From the NCBI GenBank assembly GCA_944332315.1, contig CALVJT010000004.1, forward strand, positions 1 to 35,760: a stretch of DNA of 35,760 nt, written 5' to 3'. Of this stretch, positions 9,721 to 32,996 are shown piece by piece. Below the pieces are notes generated by a model that worked only from the letters and a program-made list of their open reading frames with translations, was not told where the DNA came from and made no database searches. The first letter of the stretch is position 1. The number at the start of each line of letters is the position of its first letter. The translations under genes were made by a program, and so were the position numbers. This DNA comes from an uncultured Clostridia bacterium. GTDB taxonomy: Bacteria > Bacillota > Clostridia > Christensenellales > UBA1242.

Positions 9721-9834
9721 GCCTAAAAACATTGTAGACACTGCTAAAAATGTAAAAATTTTTAATATTATAATCTTGAGTTCGATATTTTATCGGGCTC
9801 ACTTTTTTAGCATTTTTATTAATTATTTTTTGGG

Positions 9835-9932
9835 GGTCTATAATATTAGTGGGATTATTTAATTATTTAGCAAAAAGATTTAGCATAGGTCTGAACCTAT
9901 AATTTACCATACCCCATTAATAATAAAGAACC
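9835..9932 (-). repeat. Dispersed intergenic repeat, copy C
   Basis: Reverse-oriented and nearly full length. The plus strand runs from GGTCTATAATATTAGTGGG to CCCCATTAATAATAAAGAACC, with TTTAGCAAAAAGATTTAGCA in the middle, which is the paired TTTGCTAA-like core in reverse. It sits between the convergent dusB and HU genes, 86 bases from copy D in the same orientation. Confidence 0.8.
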
Positions 9933-10018: not shown

Positions 10019-10114
10019 GTTCTATGTTATTCGTATGGTTTAGTTAAAATATAAGAAAGCGTTTAGCAAAGTTTTGATTTAACTTACCATATATCACCGT
10101 TAATGATAAAGAAT
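10019..10114 (-). repeat. Dispersed intergenic repeat, copy D
   Basis: Reverse-oriented, more diverged copy. GTTCTATGTTATTCGTATGG and GTTAATGATAAAGAATC are its two ends, with GTTTAGCAAAGTTTTG in the core. The G/C arms are largely lost (CGTATGG where others have CGTGGGG). It abuts the HU terminator. Confidence 0.65.
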
Positions 10115-10143
10115 CAAAAAAAAATAGGTCTTTCGACCTATTA
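10115..10143 (-). terminator. Terminator of the downstream HU gene
   Basis: The minus strand reads AATAGGTC, GAAA loop, GACCTATT, then a run of about nine T, only seven bases past the HU stop. It is a textbook intrinsic terminator with a stable GAAA tetraloop. Confidence 0.92.
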
Positions 10144-10149
10144 TATATA

Positions 10150-10422
10150 CTACTGTATATCTGCTTTGAATTTTTTACCAGCTTTGAAAGATGGAGCTTT
10201 GCAAGCAGCTATTTTAATAACTTCTCCTGTTCTAGGATTTTTGCCTTCTCTTTCCTCTCTGGCACGAACTTCGAACTTACCAACGCCAGATATAGTTACA
10301 TCCTCGCCATTTTTAAGTGTTTCGGTTAAAACTTCGTAGCAAGCATCTAAAATTTCGCTACAATCTTTTTTGCTGATTCCAGTTTTATCTGAAACCGCAT
10401 CAACAAACTCTTGTTTATTCAT
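10150..10422 (-). CDS. hup: DNA-binding protein HU
   Basis: A 90-aa HU/IHF-family nucleoid protein that bends DNA as a dimer. It matches the family closely: an N-terminal helical part (MNKQEFVDAVSDKTGISKKD), ISGVGKFEVRAREEREGKNPRTGE containing the beta-arm with the intercalating Pro of KNPRTGE, and the C-terminal KAPSFKAGKKFKADI. AAGGAG lies ten bases before the ATG. It has its own extended -10 promoter behind the terminator of the other HU gene and its own terminator, so the two tandem HU genes appear to be separate units. This is the canonical paralogue of the two. Confidence 0.95.
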   Translation of the reverse strand: MNKQEFVDAVSDKTGISKKDCSEILDACYEVLTETLKNGEDVTISGVGKFEVRAREEREGKNPRTGEVIKIAACKAPSFKAGKKFKADIQ

Positions 10423-10514: not shown

Positions 10515-10787
10515 TTAAGCAACTTCATTTTTTAGTTTTTCGCCACATTTGAACACGGGCACGCGTTTTGCTTTATGTTTATCGAATCTTTTTTCGATGG
10601 GGTTATAGACGAGCCTTGCCTTTCTTTCAACAACCTTAAAACTGCCAAAATTCATAAGGCTTACAGTATCCCCTCTTTTTAGCGCATCAATTATAATTTT
10701 TTGAAATTCATCAATGGCATTTTTGCTTTCCTTTAGGGATAGTTTTGTTTTTTTAGATAATTCCTCTACTAATGTTTTTTTATTCAT
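10515..10787 (-). CDS. Divergent HU-family DNA-binding protein
   Basis: A second 90-aa HU-family protein directly upstream of the canonical one. It keeps the N-terminal helices (MNKKTLVEELSKKTKLSLKES) and the fold signature MNFGSFKVVERKAR. The beta-arm, however, reads LVYNPIEKRFDKHKAKRVPVFKCGEKLK instead of the usual GRNPRTGE-containing arm. Pro is retained in YNP, so bending is possible, but charge and arm tip differ and the contacted DNA probably does too. A strong AGGAGG lies before the ATG. A 19-bp tandem duplication sits in its upstream region. It is not in a visible operon with spoVB, whose stop lies 80 bases upstream. Confidence 0.88.
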   Translation of the reverse strand: MNKKTLVEELSKKTKLSLKESKNAIDEFQKIIIDALKRGDTVSLMNFGSFKVVERKARLVYNPIEKRFDKHKAKRVPVFKCGEKLKNEVA

Positions 10788-13361: not shown

Positions 13362-13462
13362 GTTTCTTTATTATTAAAGGGGGTAGAGTGAGTTATAGAT
13401 TCAAGCTTTTGCTAAGCTCTTTCCGCTTAATTTTTCATACCCCCCACGATTATTATAGAACT
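13362..13462 (+). repeat. Dispersed intergenic repeat, copy E
   Basis: Forward, full-length and one of the best copies. The left end is TTTCTTTATTATTAAAGG with GGGGGTAGAGTGAG, the core is CTTTTGCTAAGCTC then TTTCCGCTTAAT, and the right end is ATACCCCCCACGAT then TATTATAGAACT. It lies between the convergent spoVT and ftsY genes, just after the palindromic terminator. Confidence 0.85.
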
Positions 13463-20524: not shown

Positions 20525-20621
20525 GGTTCTTTACTATTAATAGGGTACAGCGGGTTAAGTTTCACGCTTTTGTTAAGCTCTTTTTGCTAAATTTTTATCT
20601 ACCCCACGATATTATAGAACC
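20525..20621 (+). repeat. Dispersed intergenic repeat, copy F
   Basis: Forward, full-length copy with the cleanest termini: GGTTCTTTACTATTAATAGG at the left and CGATATTATAGAACC at the right. The core is CTTTTGTTAAGCTC then TTTTTGCTAAAT, with GGGTA and CTACCCCA arms. It begins three bases past the stop of the PucR-type gene and is the only clear copy placed between two genes on the minus strand. Confidence 0.85.
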
Positions 20622-23064: not shown

Positions 23065-23153
23065 AATATTAAATAGATAGTTAATTATTTAGCAGAAGGA
23101 ACTCAGCAAAGTATGAATTTATTATTTGCTATAACCCCATTAATATAAAGAAC
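23065..23153 (-). repeat. Dispersed intergenic repeat, copy G
   Basis: Reverse-oriented. The left end (CCCCATTAATATAAAGAAC on the plus strand) and core (TTTAGCAGAAGGAACTCAGCAAAG) are clear. The right end is degraded (AATATTAAATAGATAG), with the outer GGTTCT lost. It lies between the convergent AOS gene and holA. Confidence 0.7.
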
Positions 23154-26775: not shown

Positions 26776-26804
26776 TTGACAGATTGCGCATATAATGATA
26801 TAAT
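26776..26804 (+). promoter_or_regulatory. Perfect-consensus sigma-A promoter of the unknown gene pair
   Basis: TTGACA, exactly 17 bases, TATAAT: an exact match to the housekeeping consensus. Transcription should start near 26811, followed by AAAGGGG and the ATG at 26828. It is the strongest promoter in the window by inspection. Confidence 0.85.
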
Positions 26805-26827
26805 AATATCAAATAAAAGGGGTTATT

Positions 26828-27451
26828 ATGTTAAGTGGTAATGTTCAACATCATTTGCTTGACAGAATAGTTGTTTTAGATTGCTCGTTTAAGCCCATTT
26901 ATAATTGCGATAAAAAGACTTTTATGAGCTACGCAAGTTTGTTTAATTATAAATTAGCAGACATAAAAAATGCTATTATTGAACAAATTTACATACTAAA
27001 CAAGCTATACGATAAGCAAATAGATGCTAATAAAAAACAGCTGGATGCCTATGTAGAGGATTTTATTAGTAAGTGCAATATAAACTCTAAAAGCAAGGTT
27101 TTTTATAAGACAATGTTAAATAGCAAATACAAACAGCTAAAAAACAACATTCAAACTTTTAGTAAACTAGAAGGCGTTGTAAAAGAGAATATTGAAAAAT
27201 ACTACCAAAGTTTAAGCCAATTTAATTGCTACATAAATGAACAACTTGCAACATTTGAGTTAGATGAAAAATCTCTAGCAAAAATTGCGCCCGATAGTAC
27301 AAAGTTCAATCAATCTGTTCCGTGCGTACAGTATTGCAAAGATGACCTAAACAAAAAGGTGCGCTACCTAAACAGTTTGTACGGCGAAACCACAAAACAA
27401 AAACACCCTACTAATATTGATAAAGGAGATATTACTTATGGAAATTCCTAA
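26828..27451 (+). CDS. Hypothetical helical protein, first gene of a two-gene operon
   Basis: A 207-aa protein of no recognised family. No signal peptide or membrane span is present. Residues 1-30 contain a beta-like start (IVVLDCSFKPIYNCDKK). Residues 40-160 are strongly helical and Lys/Asn/Gln-rich (LADIKNAIIEQIYILNKLYDKQ ... YKTMLNSKYKQLKNNIQTF ... VKENIEKYYQSLSQFN), consistent with a coiled coil. The last 45 residues are polar, with three scattered Cys pairs in the protein overall. AAAGGGG precedes the ATG behind a perfect promoter. Its end overlaps the next gene by 14 bases, so the two are coupled and probably form a complex. Confidence 0.75.
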   Translation: MLSGNVQHHLLDRIVVLDCSFKPIYNCDKKTFMSYASLFNYKLADIKNAIIEQIYILNKLYDKQIDANKKQLDAYVEDFISKCNINSKSKVFYKTMLNSKYKQLKNNIQTFSKLEGVVKENIEKYYQSLSQFNCYINEQLATFELDEKSLAKIAPDSTKFNQSVPCVQYCKDDLNKKVRYLNSLYGETTKQKHPTNIDKGDITYGNS

Positions 27452-29009
27452 AATGCCAGAACCGCGCTATAAAAGTGCGCATGTAAACGACCCTAAATAC
27501 TTTACTTGTTTTTGCTACTATTTGCCCCCTACCGAGGCAAAGCGCGATGTTTTTGTTTCGCTTGCCGAAACGCTTAAAAACCCAAAACTTGTAAACAAGC
27601 AAATTGCGCGCGCAAAAGCGGGCAAAAAGCCTTATAGCAAAACTACAAGGATGCTTATGGATAAGTTTAATAATTTATCTGCAACTATAAACGAAAACAC
27701 AAGGCATGTTAGAACAAAGGCACACGCCTTTACTGATAAAACAAAAACTGCCTTTAGCGAGAAATTTTTGACTGAAAAAGAACCCGCTAAAGTGGCAGTT
27801 GATGAAACTACGGATGATAGTAGTGCAGTAAAACCTAGTAGGACAGCTTCGCTTAAAAAGTTTTTTGATAGAGCTACCGATGCAATCAATGAGTTAAAGG
27901 CAAAAATCAAAAACCCTGCCGAATCCACTACAGAGGCGGAAAAAACTGCTGAAACTGGAAAAGCAGTTGGGGCGGGAAAAACTGCAGCCGCTGGTGAAGC
28001 AGTTGGTACAGAAAAAACAGCTGGAACTGAAAAAAAATCAACCACAGAAAAAACAAAAGCGTTTTTTGAAAAGGTTAAAGGCAAAATTACTAATAAAGGA
28101 AGCGAATCTTCCTTTGGAGCAATTTCTCCCGAGGGGAGCAAAACTGAGACTGGTGACAAGGCTAAGACAGATGCTAAAGTTGCATCCCCTACCAAGGGTA
28201 CCGCTTCGGCAGTAGCTGATGAGGCATCAACAGCATCTGCACCTGCTTCTAGCGAGGCTACTTCGGCACCCGCATCTAGCGAGGCTACTTCGGCGCCTAG
28301 CGAAGCAACTTCTGCATCTAGCACAGAGGCATCATCAAGCGAAACGGCTCCTAGTACTGAGGCAGCAACTGCCGAAACCGCGCCTAGTACGGAGGCAGCC
28401 GAAACTGCACCTAGCACAGAAACATCGGAATCTGGCGAGGCAACAGCTAAACATGCAGAGGCGAGCCCTGCTCCTGGTACAGACGCTCCAGCTACCGAAA
28501 CAGGTAAACCTTCTGCCGAAACATCTGCACCTGCCGATACAAAGGGAAAATCAGAATCTCATGAAGGTGCAAGTACAGAATCTAAAGTAGAGGCTGATAC
28601 CAAGATTAAAGAAACAACCACTCCTAGTGGCTATAAAAGAATTTATAAATTTGTTGCTCCAGTTAGCGAAAAGTTAGCAAATGCAAAAACTCGAGTAAAA
28701 GAGTATTTCGCAGATACCAAAGAAAGCAAAACTTGGCAACGCATGGCGTCCGTTAAGGAAAAATGCAAGCGCTCTGTTTATTCGCTTGCGGGCAAACTTA
28801 AACTTGTAACTTTCCACGAAGTCGACTATTCTGCTTATGGTAAAAAAGAATCTAGAATAAAAACAGATGCAGACGAAAAGGATATTACCGAAAGCTTGCG
28901 CTACTTCTTTAACGAGTTAGATGGCATATCTGCCCCTCCTGCTGATGGTTCAACAGGCTCGGCTCCTGCTGGTGCTACACCATCAACAGATAAAGAAGCA
29001 GAAAGATAA
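27438..29009 (+). CDS. Unrecognised protein with Ser/Thr/Ala/Glu/Pro low-complexity centre
   Basis: The ATG at 27438 has AAGGAG nine bases upstream and gives 523 aa; a TTG seven codons earlier is not supported. There is no signal peptide, transmembrane span or sorting motif. Residues 1-70 are basic and ordered (DPKYFTCFCYYLPPTEAKRD). Residues 90-240 contain short Lys/Phe helices spaced by acidic linkers (KTAFSEKFLTEK, LKKFFDRATDAINELKAKI, KAFFEKVKGKIT). Residues 255-375 are almost entirely Ser, Thr, Ala, Glu and Pro, with repeated SSEATSAPA and SETAPSTEA units. Residues 390-500 are ordered again (YKRIYKFVAPVSEKLANAK ... VYSLAGKLKLVTFHEVDYSAYGKK). GC is raised over the repeat region relative to neighbours. 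Function unknown; a cytoplasmic scaffold or filament-like role is only one guess. Confidence 0.75.
   Translation: MEIPKMPEPRYKSAHVNDPKYFTCFCYYLPPTEAKRDVFVSLAETLKNPKLVNKQIARAKAGKKPYSKTTRMLMDKFNNLSATINENTRHVRTKAHAFTDKTKTAFSEKFLTEKEPAKVAVDETTDDSSAVKPSRTASLKKFFDRATDAINELKAKIKNPAESTTEAEKTAETGKAVGAGKTAAAGEAVGTEKTAGTEKKSTTEKTKAFFEKVKGKITNKGSESSFGAISPEGSKTETGDKAKTDAKVASPTKGTASAVADEASTASAPASSEATSAPASSEATSAPSEATSASSTEASSSETAPSTEAATAETAPSTEAAETAPSTETSESGEATAKHAEASPAPGTDAPATETGKPSAETSAPADTKGKSESHEGASTESKVEADTKIKETTTPSGYKRIYKFVAPVSEKLANAKTRVKEYFADTKESKTWQRMASVKEKCKRSVYSLAGKLKLVTFHEVDYSAYGKKESRIKTDADEKDITESLRYFFNELDGISAPPADGSTGSAPAGATPSTDKEAER
28248..28297 (+). repeat. 27-bp period tandem repeat inside the low-complexity gene
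   Basis: TCTAGCGAGGCTACTTCGGC at 28248 recurs at 28275, the 23-base units differing at one position. A third degraded unit (AGCGAAGCAACTTCTGCA) follows. The unit encodes SSEATSAPA and keeps the reading frame. This is a candidate for length variation between strains. Confidence 0.8.
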
Positions 29010-29109
29010 TTTTTGGGGTTAAATAAAAATGTATGGAGTTAATATTAAATTAATTAAATCGTAATCGAGCAAAAAACACTCCAAAACCCTACTATTACAT
29101 AACAAAATT

Positions 29110-29133
29110 CCACGGGTCAACCCGTGGTTTTTT
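29110..29133 (+). terminator. Terminator of the unknown gene pair
   Basis: CCACGGG and CCCGTGG pair perfectly around TCAA, followed by six T, 100 bases past the stop at 29009. It is one of the strongest terminators in the window, matching the strong promoter of the operon. Confidence 0.92.
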
Positions 29134-29146
29134 AGTAATATAAATT

Positions 29147-29246
29147 GGTTTTATAATATTCGTGGGGTTAGCTAAATATTTAGCAAAATAAGTCTAGCAA
29201 ATGTATGAGCCTTTAACTTATGTACCTCCATTCATAAAAATGAACC
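29147..29246 (-). repeat. Dispersed intergenic repeat, copy H
   Basis: Reverse-oriented and full length. The plus strand begins GGTTTTATAATATTCGTGGGG and ends ATTCATAAAAATGAACC. The core is GCTAAATATTTAGCAAAATAAG then CTAGCAAATG. It lies between the convergent low-complexity gene and xseB. The remaining spacer to 29378 is A/T-rich with no gene. Confidence 0.8.
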
Positions 29247-32671: not shown

Positions 32672-32752
32672 AATCTTTATTATTAATGGTGGTATAGTAA
32701 GTTATATATTCAGGCTTTGCTAAGCTAACTCTCCTACCCCGACAAAAATTTA
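32672..32752 (+). repeat. Dispersed intergenic repeat, copy I
   Basis: Forward copy with a clear left end (CTTTATTATTAATGGTGG, as in copy A), the GGTATAGTAAGTTATATATTC segment, core GGCTTTGCTAAGCT and right arm CTACCCCGAC. The second TTTGCTAA and the outer right end are missing. It lies between the convergent lipoprotein gene and tRNA-Leu. Confidence 0.75.
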
Positions 32753-32909: not shown

Positions 32910-32996
32910 TGGTGCCGAAGGTGGGACTTGAACCCACATGAAGTTGCCCTCGCAAGATTTTGAGTCTTGTGCGTCTGCCAATTCCGCCACTTCGGC
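32910..32996 (-). tRNA. tRNA-Leu (anticodon CAA)
   Basis: The 87-base minus-strand transcript has the acceptor stem GCCGAAG/CTTCGGC, discriminator A and an encoded CCA. The anticodon arm is CAAGA, loop CTCAAAA, TCTTG, giving anticodon CAA for UUG codons. The long variable arm (CGAGGGCAACTTCATG region) is typical of class II tRNAs, and the T arm is TGGG-TTCAAGT-CCCA. It is a single tRNA gene with its own terminator. Confidence 0.95.

Follow-up and report, generated by a model that had tools for sequence, protein, structure and literature searches.

What role might be played by a two-gene operon that has a perfect promoter and whose proteins belong to no recognised family? The locus that raises this question lies in a 35,760-nucleotide stretch of DNA (the window) from an uncultured Clostridia bacterium, and the original prediction was of a perfect TTGACA-17-TATAAT promoter, two coupled genes and a terminator. 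All of these elements are present at 26776–29133, and their coordinates are given in Table 1. The promoter boxes are located at 26776–26781 (TTGACA) and 26799–26804 (TATAAT), and the 17-nt spacer has TGA at its end, with the TG of the extended −10 at 26796–26797. The −10 element is 23 bases from the start of gene 1, and the two genes overlap by 14 nt. The promoter, the two overlapping genes with their own Shine-Dalgarno sequences, and the terminator constitute one bicistronic unit.

Table 1. Features of the two-gene operon. Positions refer to the window, residue numbers to the gene 2 protein.
Feature	Position	Strand	Basis or remark
Sigma-70-type promoter TTGACA-17-TATAAT, extended −10	26776–26804	+	12/12 match
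Shine-Dalgarno sequence of gene 1, AAAAGGGG	26815–26822	+	sequence
Gene 1, ATG start, 207 aa	26828–27451	+	predicted helical-bundle protein, pI 8.9; 32–48% identity to the orthologues of four sister species
Shine-Dalgarno sequence of gene 2, AAAGGAG	27422–27428	+	within the 3′ end of gene 1
Gene 2, ATG start, 523 aa	27438–29009	+	protein predicted to be mostly disordered
Conserved N-terminal module of gene 2, xRYKK..NPxYFxCLSY.. (residues 1–60)	27438–27617	+	five-species alignment
Predicted N-proximal amphipathic helices of gene 2 (residues 68–111, 135–158)	27639–27911	+	AF2; moment p ~0.02 vs shuffles; class-A zonation
Predicted short Lys/Phe amphipathic helix of gene 2 (residues 202–220)	28041–28097	+	AF2; alone not significant, p 0.09
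Predicted acidic Ser/Thr/Ala/Glu/Pro disordered linker of gene 2 (residues 230–398)	28125–28631	+	net charge −16; unconserved in sister species
Predicted C-terminal basic amphipathic helices of gene 2 (residues 399–454), with conserved SxKxKCKRSxxS motif	28632–28799	+	AF2, alignment, moment
C-terminal motif of gene 2, E(V/I)DYxxYGKKESRI, best-conserved stretch	28818–28859	+	alignment, 4/5 species
Intrinsic terminator CCACGGGTCAACCCGTGG-TTTTTT	29110–29133	+	hairpin and T run; also faces convergent xseBA

Isolated consensus matches are about as frequent as expected from shuffling (13 promoter-like matches against 13.1, and 4 terminator-like matches against 3.5), and among the promoter-like matches only the operon promoter agrees at 12 of 12 positions. 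Across the 1.33-Mb genome there are 40 perfect promoters, while a reversed control pattern occurs twice, and nine of the 40 have the TG. The genes behind the others include some that we take, from reading their first residues, to encode ribosomal proteins S10, L10 and L21, lexA and greA. Because the same type of promoter precedes these genes, that of the operon appears to be of the strong housekeeping class, and a perfect promoter is not unique in this genome. The codon bias of this genome (0.752 for gene 1 and 0.736 for gene 2, compared with 0.737 for the ribosomal set and a genome median of 0.702) is not strong enough to serve as a guide to abundance.

The surroundings of the operon include a repeated sequence of about 100 bp with the consensus GGTTCTATAATATTCGTGGGGGTAGTTAAATATTTAGCAGAAAGAGCTTAGCAAAAGTTTGAATCTATAACTTATATACCACCATTAATAATAAAGAACC. 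It is intergenic and is present in 9 copies in the window and 96 in the 1.33-Mb genome. One copy is located just downstream of the operon terminator (29147–29246, + strand), and the others in the window are at 171–258, 1304–1407, 9834–9932, 10019–10115, 13364–13461, 20525–20621, 23077–23153 and 32674–32749. The copies have imperfect terminal inverted repeats and a mean pairwise identity of 0.74; 33 are between convergent genes compared with 5 between divergent genes. There is no match to the repeat in Rfam and no consensus fold from RNAalifold, and the sister species G001–G003 retain only its first 21–45 bases, at a few sites. The repeat is MITE-like. Elsewhere in the window, two different HU-like DNA-binding protein genes adjoin (10150–10422 and 10515–10787, − strand), and the 136-aa ORF overlying a tRNA-Leu (CAA) at 32910–32996 (− strand) is spurious. 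A giant open frame of 4272 aa is present at G000:C6:31222-44040 (− strand).

The operon is not a chance arrangement, because the gene pair, its order, its place and the 12/12 promoter are kept in each of the five genus genomes, which are about 1.0–1.3 Mb in size. The gene order in each is comEC(−), gene 1(+), gene 2(+) and convergent xseBA. The orthologous promoters all match at 12 of 12 positions and have TGN-TATAAT, despite diverged surroundings, and a Shine-Dalgarno sequence lies ahead of both genes in every genome. At least four of the genomes have a recognisable hairpin-T terminator at the corresponding position, and the hairpins of G002, G003 and G004 differ in sequence. This is strong evidence that selection acts on the operon and on its strong promoter, the five species being related and not independent trials.

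The proteins themselves have diverged considerably. Identity between this species and the others of the genus is 31–48% for gene 1, 55–67% for comEC and 72–75% for xseA, which indicates that the gene pair evolves fast. Between this species and G001, pN/pS for gene 2 is 0.37 in the N-terminal part, 0.89 in the middle and 0.50 in the C-terminal part, synonymous sites being near saturation so that only the ranking of these values is meaningful. The substitution patterns indicate that gene 1 and both ends of gene 2 are under purifying selection, with the middle of gene 2 nearly free.

Searches beyond the genus, by which the original prediction was to be checked, place the pair in five of five genus genomes with no clear relative outside them. 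Among the genomes of 99 relatives, gene 1 has clear matches only in the five of the genus; among 297 family genomes its profile recovers the five genus members at E < 1e-70 and nothing elsewhere better than 8e-4, and in an order-wide sample of 396 genomes it matches its own genome only. Clear matches to a profile of the gene 2 N-terminus are likewise confined to the genus. A scan of genome contigs matched only four sister MAGs, the pair was not found in a viral set of 2.9 million contigs, no paralogues of it were found in its own genome, and the comEC and xseA neighbourhoods of sister genera contain no such pair and no diverged counterpart. Weak family-level matches were rejected. Of the three gene 1 matches looked at first, one contains a stop, one is a dprA-like gene next to a Mg-chelatase-like gene, and one lies next to a collagen-like gene; the others score below 19 bits in unrelated frames. 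Matches of the gene 2 N-terminus are short, and several contain stops. Profile searches of both proteins against Pfam, NCBIfam, PHROGs and PADLOC gave chance-level or sub-threshold matches only (no significant match in PHROGs, best E 0.0099), and a PDB sequence search with the alignments of both gave nothing up to E 10. As had been supposed, the genes are of no recognised family, and these searches revealed no known surface or secretion family.

It has been argued that homology-detection failure can explain apparent lineage restriction (PMC7660931). From the decay of the gene 1 score with comEC distance, a homologue in a sister genus, at 30–36% comEC identity, is predicted to score about 13–23 bits (range 8–40), near or below detection, so that detection failure is sufficient to account for the apparent restriction to the genus. 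For this reason confinement to the genus is not accepted here as showing that the pair arose de novo, and, since the pair is fast-evolving, undetectable homologues may exist outside the genus. The pair is a real orphan family without detected relatives, not a demonstrated new mechanism.

Gene 1 had been described as coiled-coil-like, and this is supported in the form of a helical bundle. The AF2 model, built from a five-sequence alignment (pLDDT 80.3, pTM 0.73), comprises a short helix at the N-terminus, a pair of antiparallel helices some 55 residues long (29–82 and 87–143) and a C-terminal helix (168–184), and the protein is confidently predicted to be an antiparallel helical bundle. Its invariant residues cluster in the first long helix (IIxQxYIxNKLY) and in the C-terminal helix (PxxxYCxxD), and it is basic across the genus (pI 8.9–9.3). 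Foldseek comparison of the model with PDB and BFVD gave no match at E ≤ 0.001. In VIA-align, where a Z of about 13 is the level needed for helical bundles to be meaningful, the best match (Z 11.9) is to designed/viral coiled coils, followed by SPX domains, Smac, STAT and Vipp1; all are generic bundles below that level, and we claim neither an SPX nor an ESCRT-III assignment. The helices of the hairpin are similar in length to those of the ESCRT-III-like PspA/Vipp1 proteins, but the alignment to Vipp1 (Z 9.1, rmsd 3.5, 120 residues) is tied with unrelated helical bundles, and gene 1 has no sequence match to them: the PspA/IM30 Pfam family is absent among the matches of the five members up to E 0.1.

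The gene 2 protein is predicted to be mostly disordered with several amphipathic helices. Its AF2 model has a pLDDT of 45, and the moderately confident helices are at residues 68–111, 135–158, 399–424 and 430–454. Ordered basic ends and amphipathic helices had been proposed for it; the ends are basic (+5 to +9 per ~50 residues) and amphipathic helices are predicted, but in the AF2 model the ends are only partly ordered. The proposed Ser/Thr/Ala/Glu/Pro centre is also present, but it extends over about 160–170 residues (about 230–398) rather than 120. The maximum 19-residue KD hydropathy is at most 1.02, in agreement with the proposal that there is no signal peptide or membrane anchor. The orthologues in the four sister species are 470, 364, 341 and 217 aa long, and the Ser/Thr/Ala/Glu/Pro composition is peculiar to this species, the sister linkers being rich in Asn/Lys/Glu/Thr. 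Because the centre is unconserved in relatives and has the high pN/pS noted above, it is probably a spacer. Because it is peculiar to one species, its composition does not speak for phase separation, and the case for DNA compaction is weakened as well. The short G003 orthologue, which is Lys-rich (pI 10), does not have the E(V/I)DYxxYGKKESRI motif, so the motif cannot be indispensable.

The amphipathic helices of gene 2 have a distinctive arrangement of charges. Four of the six predicted helices in this species have hydrophobic moments exceeding those of shuffled sequences (p ~0.005–0.024; 0.06 and 0.09 for the other two), and both the moments (~0.35–0.6) and the hydrophobicity are modest. Charge zonation was measured with the helix axis set while treating all charges alike, and angles were counted from the middle of the hydrophobic face. 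The mean angle in the amphipathic segments is 108 degrees for Lys/Arg, at the interface, and 137 degrees for Asp/Glu, opposite the hydrophobic face. The pooled difference of 29.8 degrees was reached in none of 5000 within-segment label permutations, in a test that covers five related and not independent species, and it is positive in all five (21–51 degrees). In this species the zonation of gene 2 is at the 98th percentile among 297 proteins of the same genome, and gene 1 has none (−2.9). The sign is stable over four thresholds and two helix pitches; significance in individual species is reached in about three of the five at most settings, and under the strictest threshold, which leaves three segments, the protein of this species loses the effect. 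Such a class-A pattern, with Lys at the interface and acids opposite, is established for the lipid-surface helices of apolipoproteins and synuclein, and LEA proteins share it. Because this charge pattern is of the lipid-binding type, we favour a tether associated with a lipid surface or membrane over a generic scaffold.

Matches of gene 2 to known families are all below their cut-offs. The G001 member matches Pfam Apolipoprotein (PF01442) at E 5.7e-5 over residues 138–234, with 23.3 bits against a cut-off of 90, and is the only one of the five to do so. The G003 member alone matches LEA_4 (PF02987; 0.0011, 19.3 bits against a cut-off of 51.1), and it also matches Phasin (PF05597; 0.015, 15.8 bits against 28.8). 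Gene 2 may therefore work like apolipoprotein, LEA or phasin-type proteins, by analogy, but is not a member of those families. It resembles apolipoproteins A1, A4 and E (PF01442) in having Lys at the polar/nonpolar interface with acids opposite, a pattern weaker in two species, and in the Pro-punctuated helices of the G001 member, which lie behind the sub-threshold match. Unlike apolipoproteins, it is bacterial, its helices are short and separated within disorder, and it has a bundle partner gene. LEA_4 and phasin proteins share its amphipathic, disordered, Lys/Thr/Ala-rich character. A PHA synthase (PhaC_N) was not found in any of the five genus genomes and was detected in one of 14 control genomes; its absence makes a PHA-granule role unlikely and the membrane the likelier surface. 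A search for WS/DGAT gave no match in the genus, but the control genomes were silent too.

Two further parallels are with lipid-droplet proteins. Perilipin 4 has long, weakly hydrophobic amphipathic helices able to coat lipid droplets, and perilipins have both a helical bundle and an amphipathic stretch (PMC5889406). Hydrophobicity autocorrelation in several gene 2 members peaks at 7, 11, 18 and 33–36 residues, which recalls the 11-mer-repeat proteins perilipin and alpha-synuclein (PMC5889406), but in gene 2 the repeats form no regular array, the bundle is encoded by a gene of its own, and there is no sequence relationship. The MLDS protein of Rhodococcus, which is likewise bacterial, acts at a lipid surface: it has an apolipoprotein motif, and through its PAKKA motifs it links lipid droplets with DNA (PMC5504291). 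Gene 2 would similarly combine an apolipoprotein motif with a basic part bridging a lipid surface to a partner, but its 523-aa sequence has no PAKKA motifs. The perilipin and MLDS parallels are to be read as functional analogies only.

Several other roles for the pair have to be weighed. Gene 2 could be a multivalent, disordered client-linker that gathers gene 1 bundles on its helices into a putative cytoplasmic assembly or condensate. One operon does pair a disordered protein containing repeated short helices with a folded partner, and the two genes co-occur in all five genomes; however, neither the composition nor the length of the linker is conserved, the whole protein shrinking from 523 to 217 aa, and an assembly of this sort has no need of class-A zonation, so that we think it unlikely. 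A nucleoid or DNA-associated pair, with DNA bound by the basic ends of gene 2 and the linker as a spacer, would agree with the basic character of gene 1 and with the Lys-rich G003 orthologue. We consider it quite improbable: the whole gene 2 protein is near neutral in three of the five species (net −2 to +3), no DNA-binding family matches above its cut-off, and the charge zonation of the helices resembles that of lipid binders.

Equally to be considered is a stress protectant, LEA-like or apolipoprotein-like, in which gene 2 shields membranes or proteins with no specific docking. Its high disorder and low hydropathy suit such a role, as do the sub-threshold LEA_4 and Apolipoprotein matches, but the promoter is of the housekeeping type rather than the stress type, and conserved end motifs together with a dedicated partner gene imply specific contacts; this reading is decidedly improbable. 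That the pair is a relic of a mobile element or phage, or a fast-evolving effector, which has settled in the genus is what orphan genes diverging faster than comEC and xseA might suggest. Its identical chromosomal place in five of five species argues against this, as does the failure to find a relative in viral contigs or a significant match in PHROGs, and we regard it as very improbable indeed.

We tentatively prefer, with somewhat less than even confidence, the reading of gene 2 as a peripheral lipid-surface tether with the gene 1 helical bundle as its partner. The operon would be a genus-specific two-component unit that is presumably transcribed constitutively. The gene 2 product would be a flexible cytoplasmic protein that is held against a lipid surface by several class-A amphipathic helices spaced along its length, and this surface would most probably be the cytoplasmic side of the cell membrane. 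The conserved N-terminal module and the C-terminal YGKKESRI motif would act as docking ends, and the variable linker would be a spacer only. The gene 1 product, putatively a soluble bundle of three helices whose translation keeps pace with that of gene 2, is its likely binding partner or adaptor, and the pair may fasten some component of the cell envelope, nucleoid or division machinery to the membrane. More specifically, the pair could be a two-component lipid-surface coat or membrane tether that evolved within the genus, made up of a class-A spacer-type protein and its dedicated bundle partner and expressed from a promoter of the ribosomal-protein class; it would be unrelated in sequence to known scaffolds and might help to organise the envelope or cell shape, a proposal that we find conceivable but doubtful.

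That the pair replaces a lost MreB or DivIVA was rejected as a simple story, since this genome and most sister species have both. As a separate observation, MreB is strikingly divergent in the small-genome family (G000:C21:131780-132736 and family-wide), scoring ~110–267 bits where found compared with 380–480 in many other families of the order, and an MreB search of G002, G005 and G020 gave no clear match.

Cell biology peculiar to single lineages of uncultured bacteria lies hidden in operons like this one, which are conserved, strongly promoted, restricted to a genus and without a family. Should the lipid-surface reading prove correct, the pair would represent a bacterial counterpart of the apolipoprotein- and perilipin-like surface proteins, with its own partner, in a genus of small genomes.
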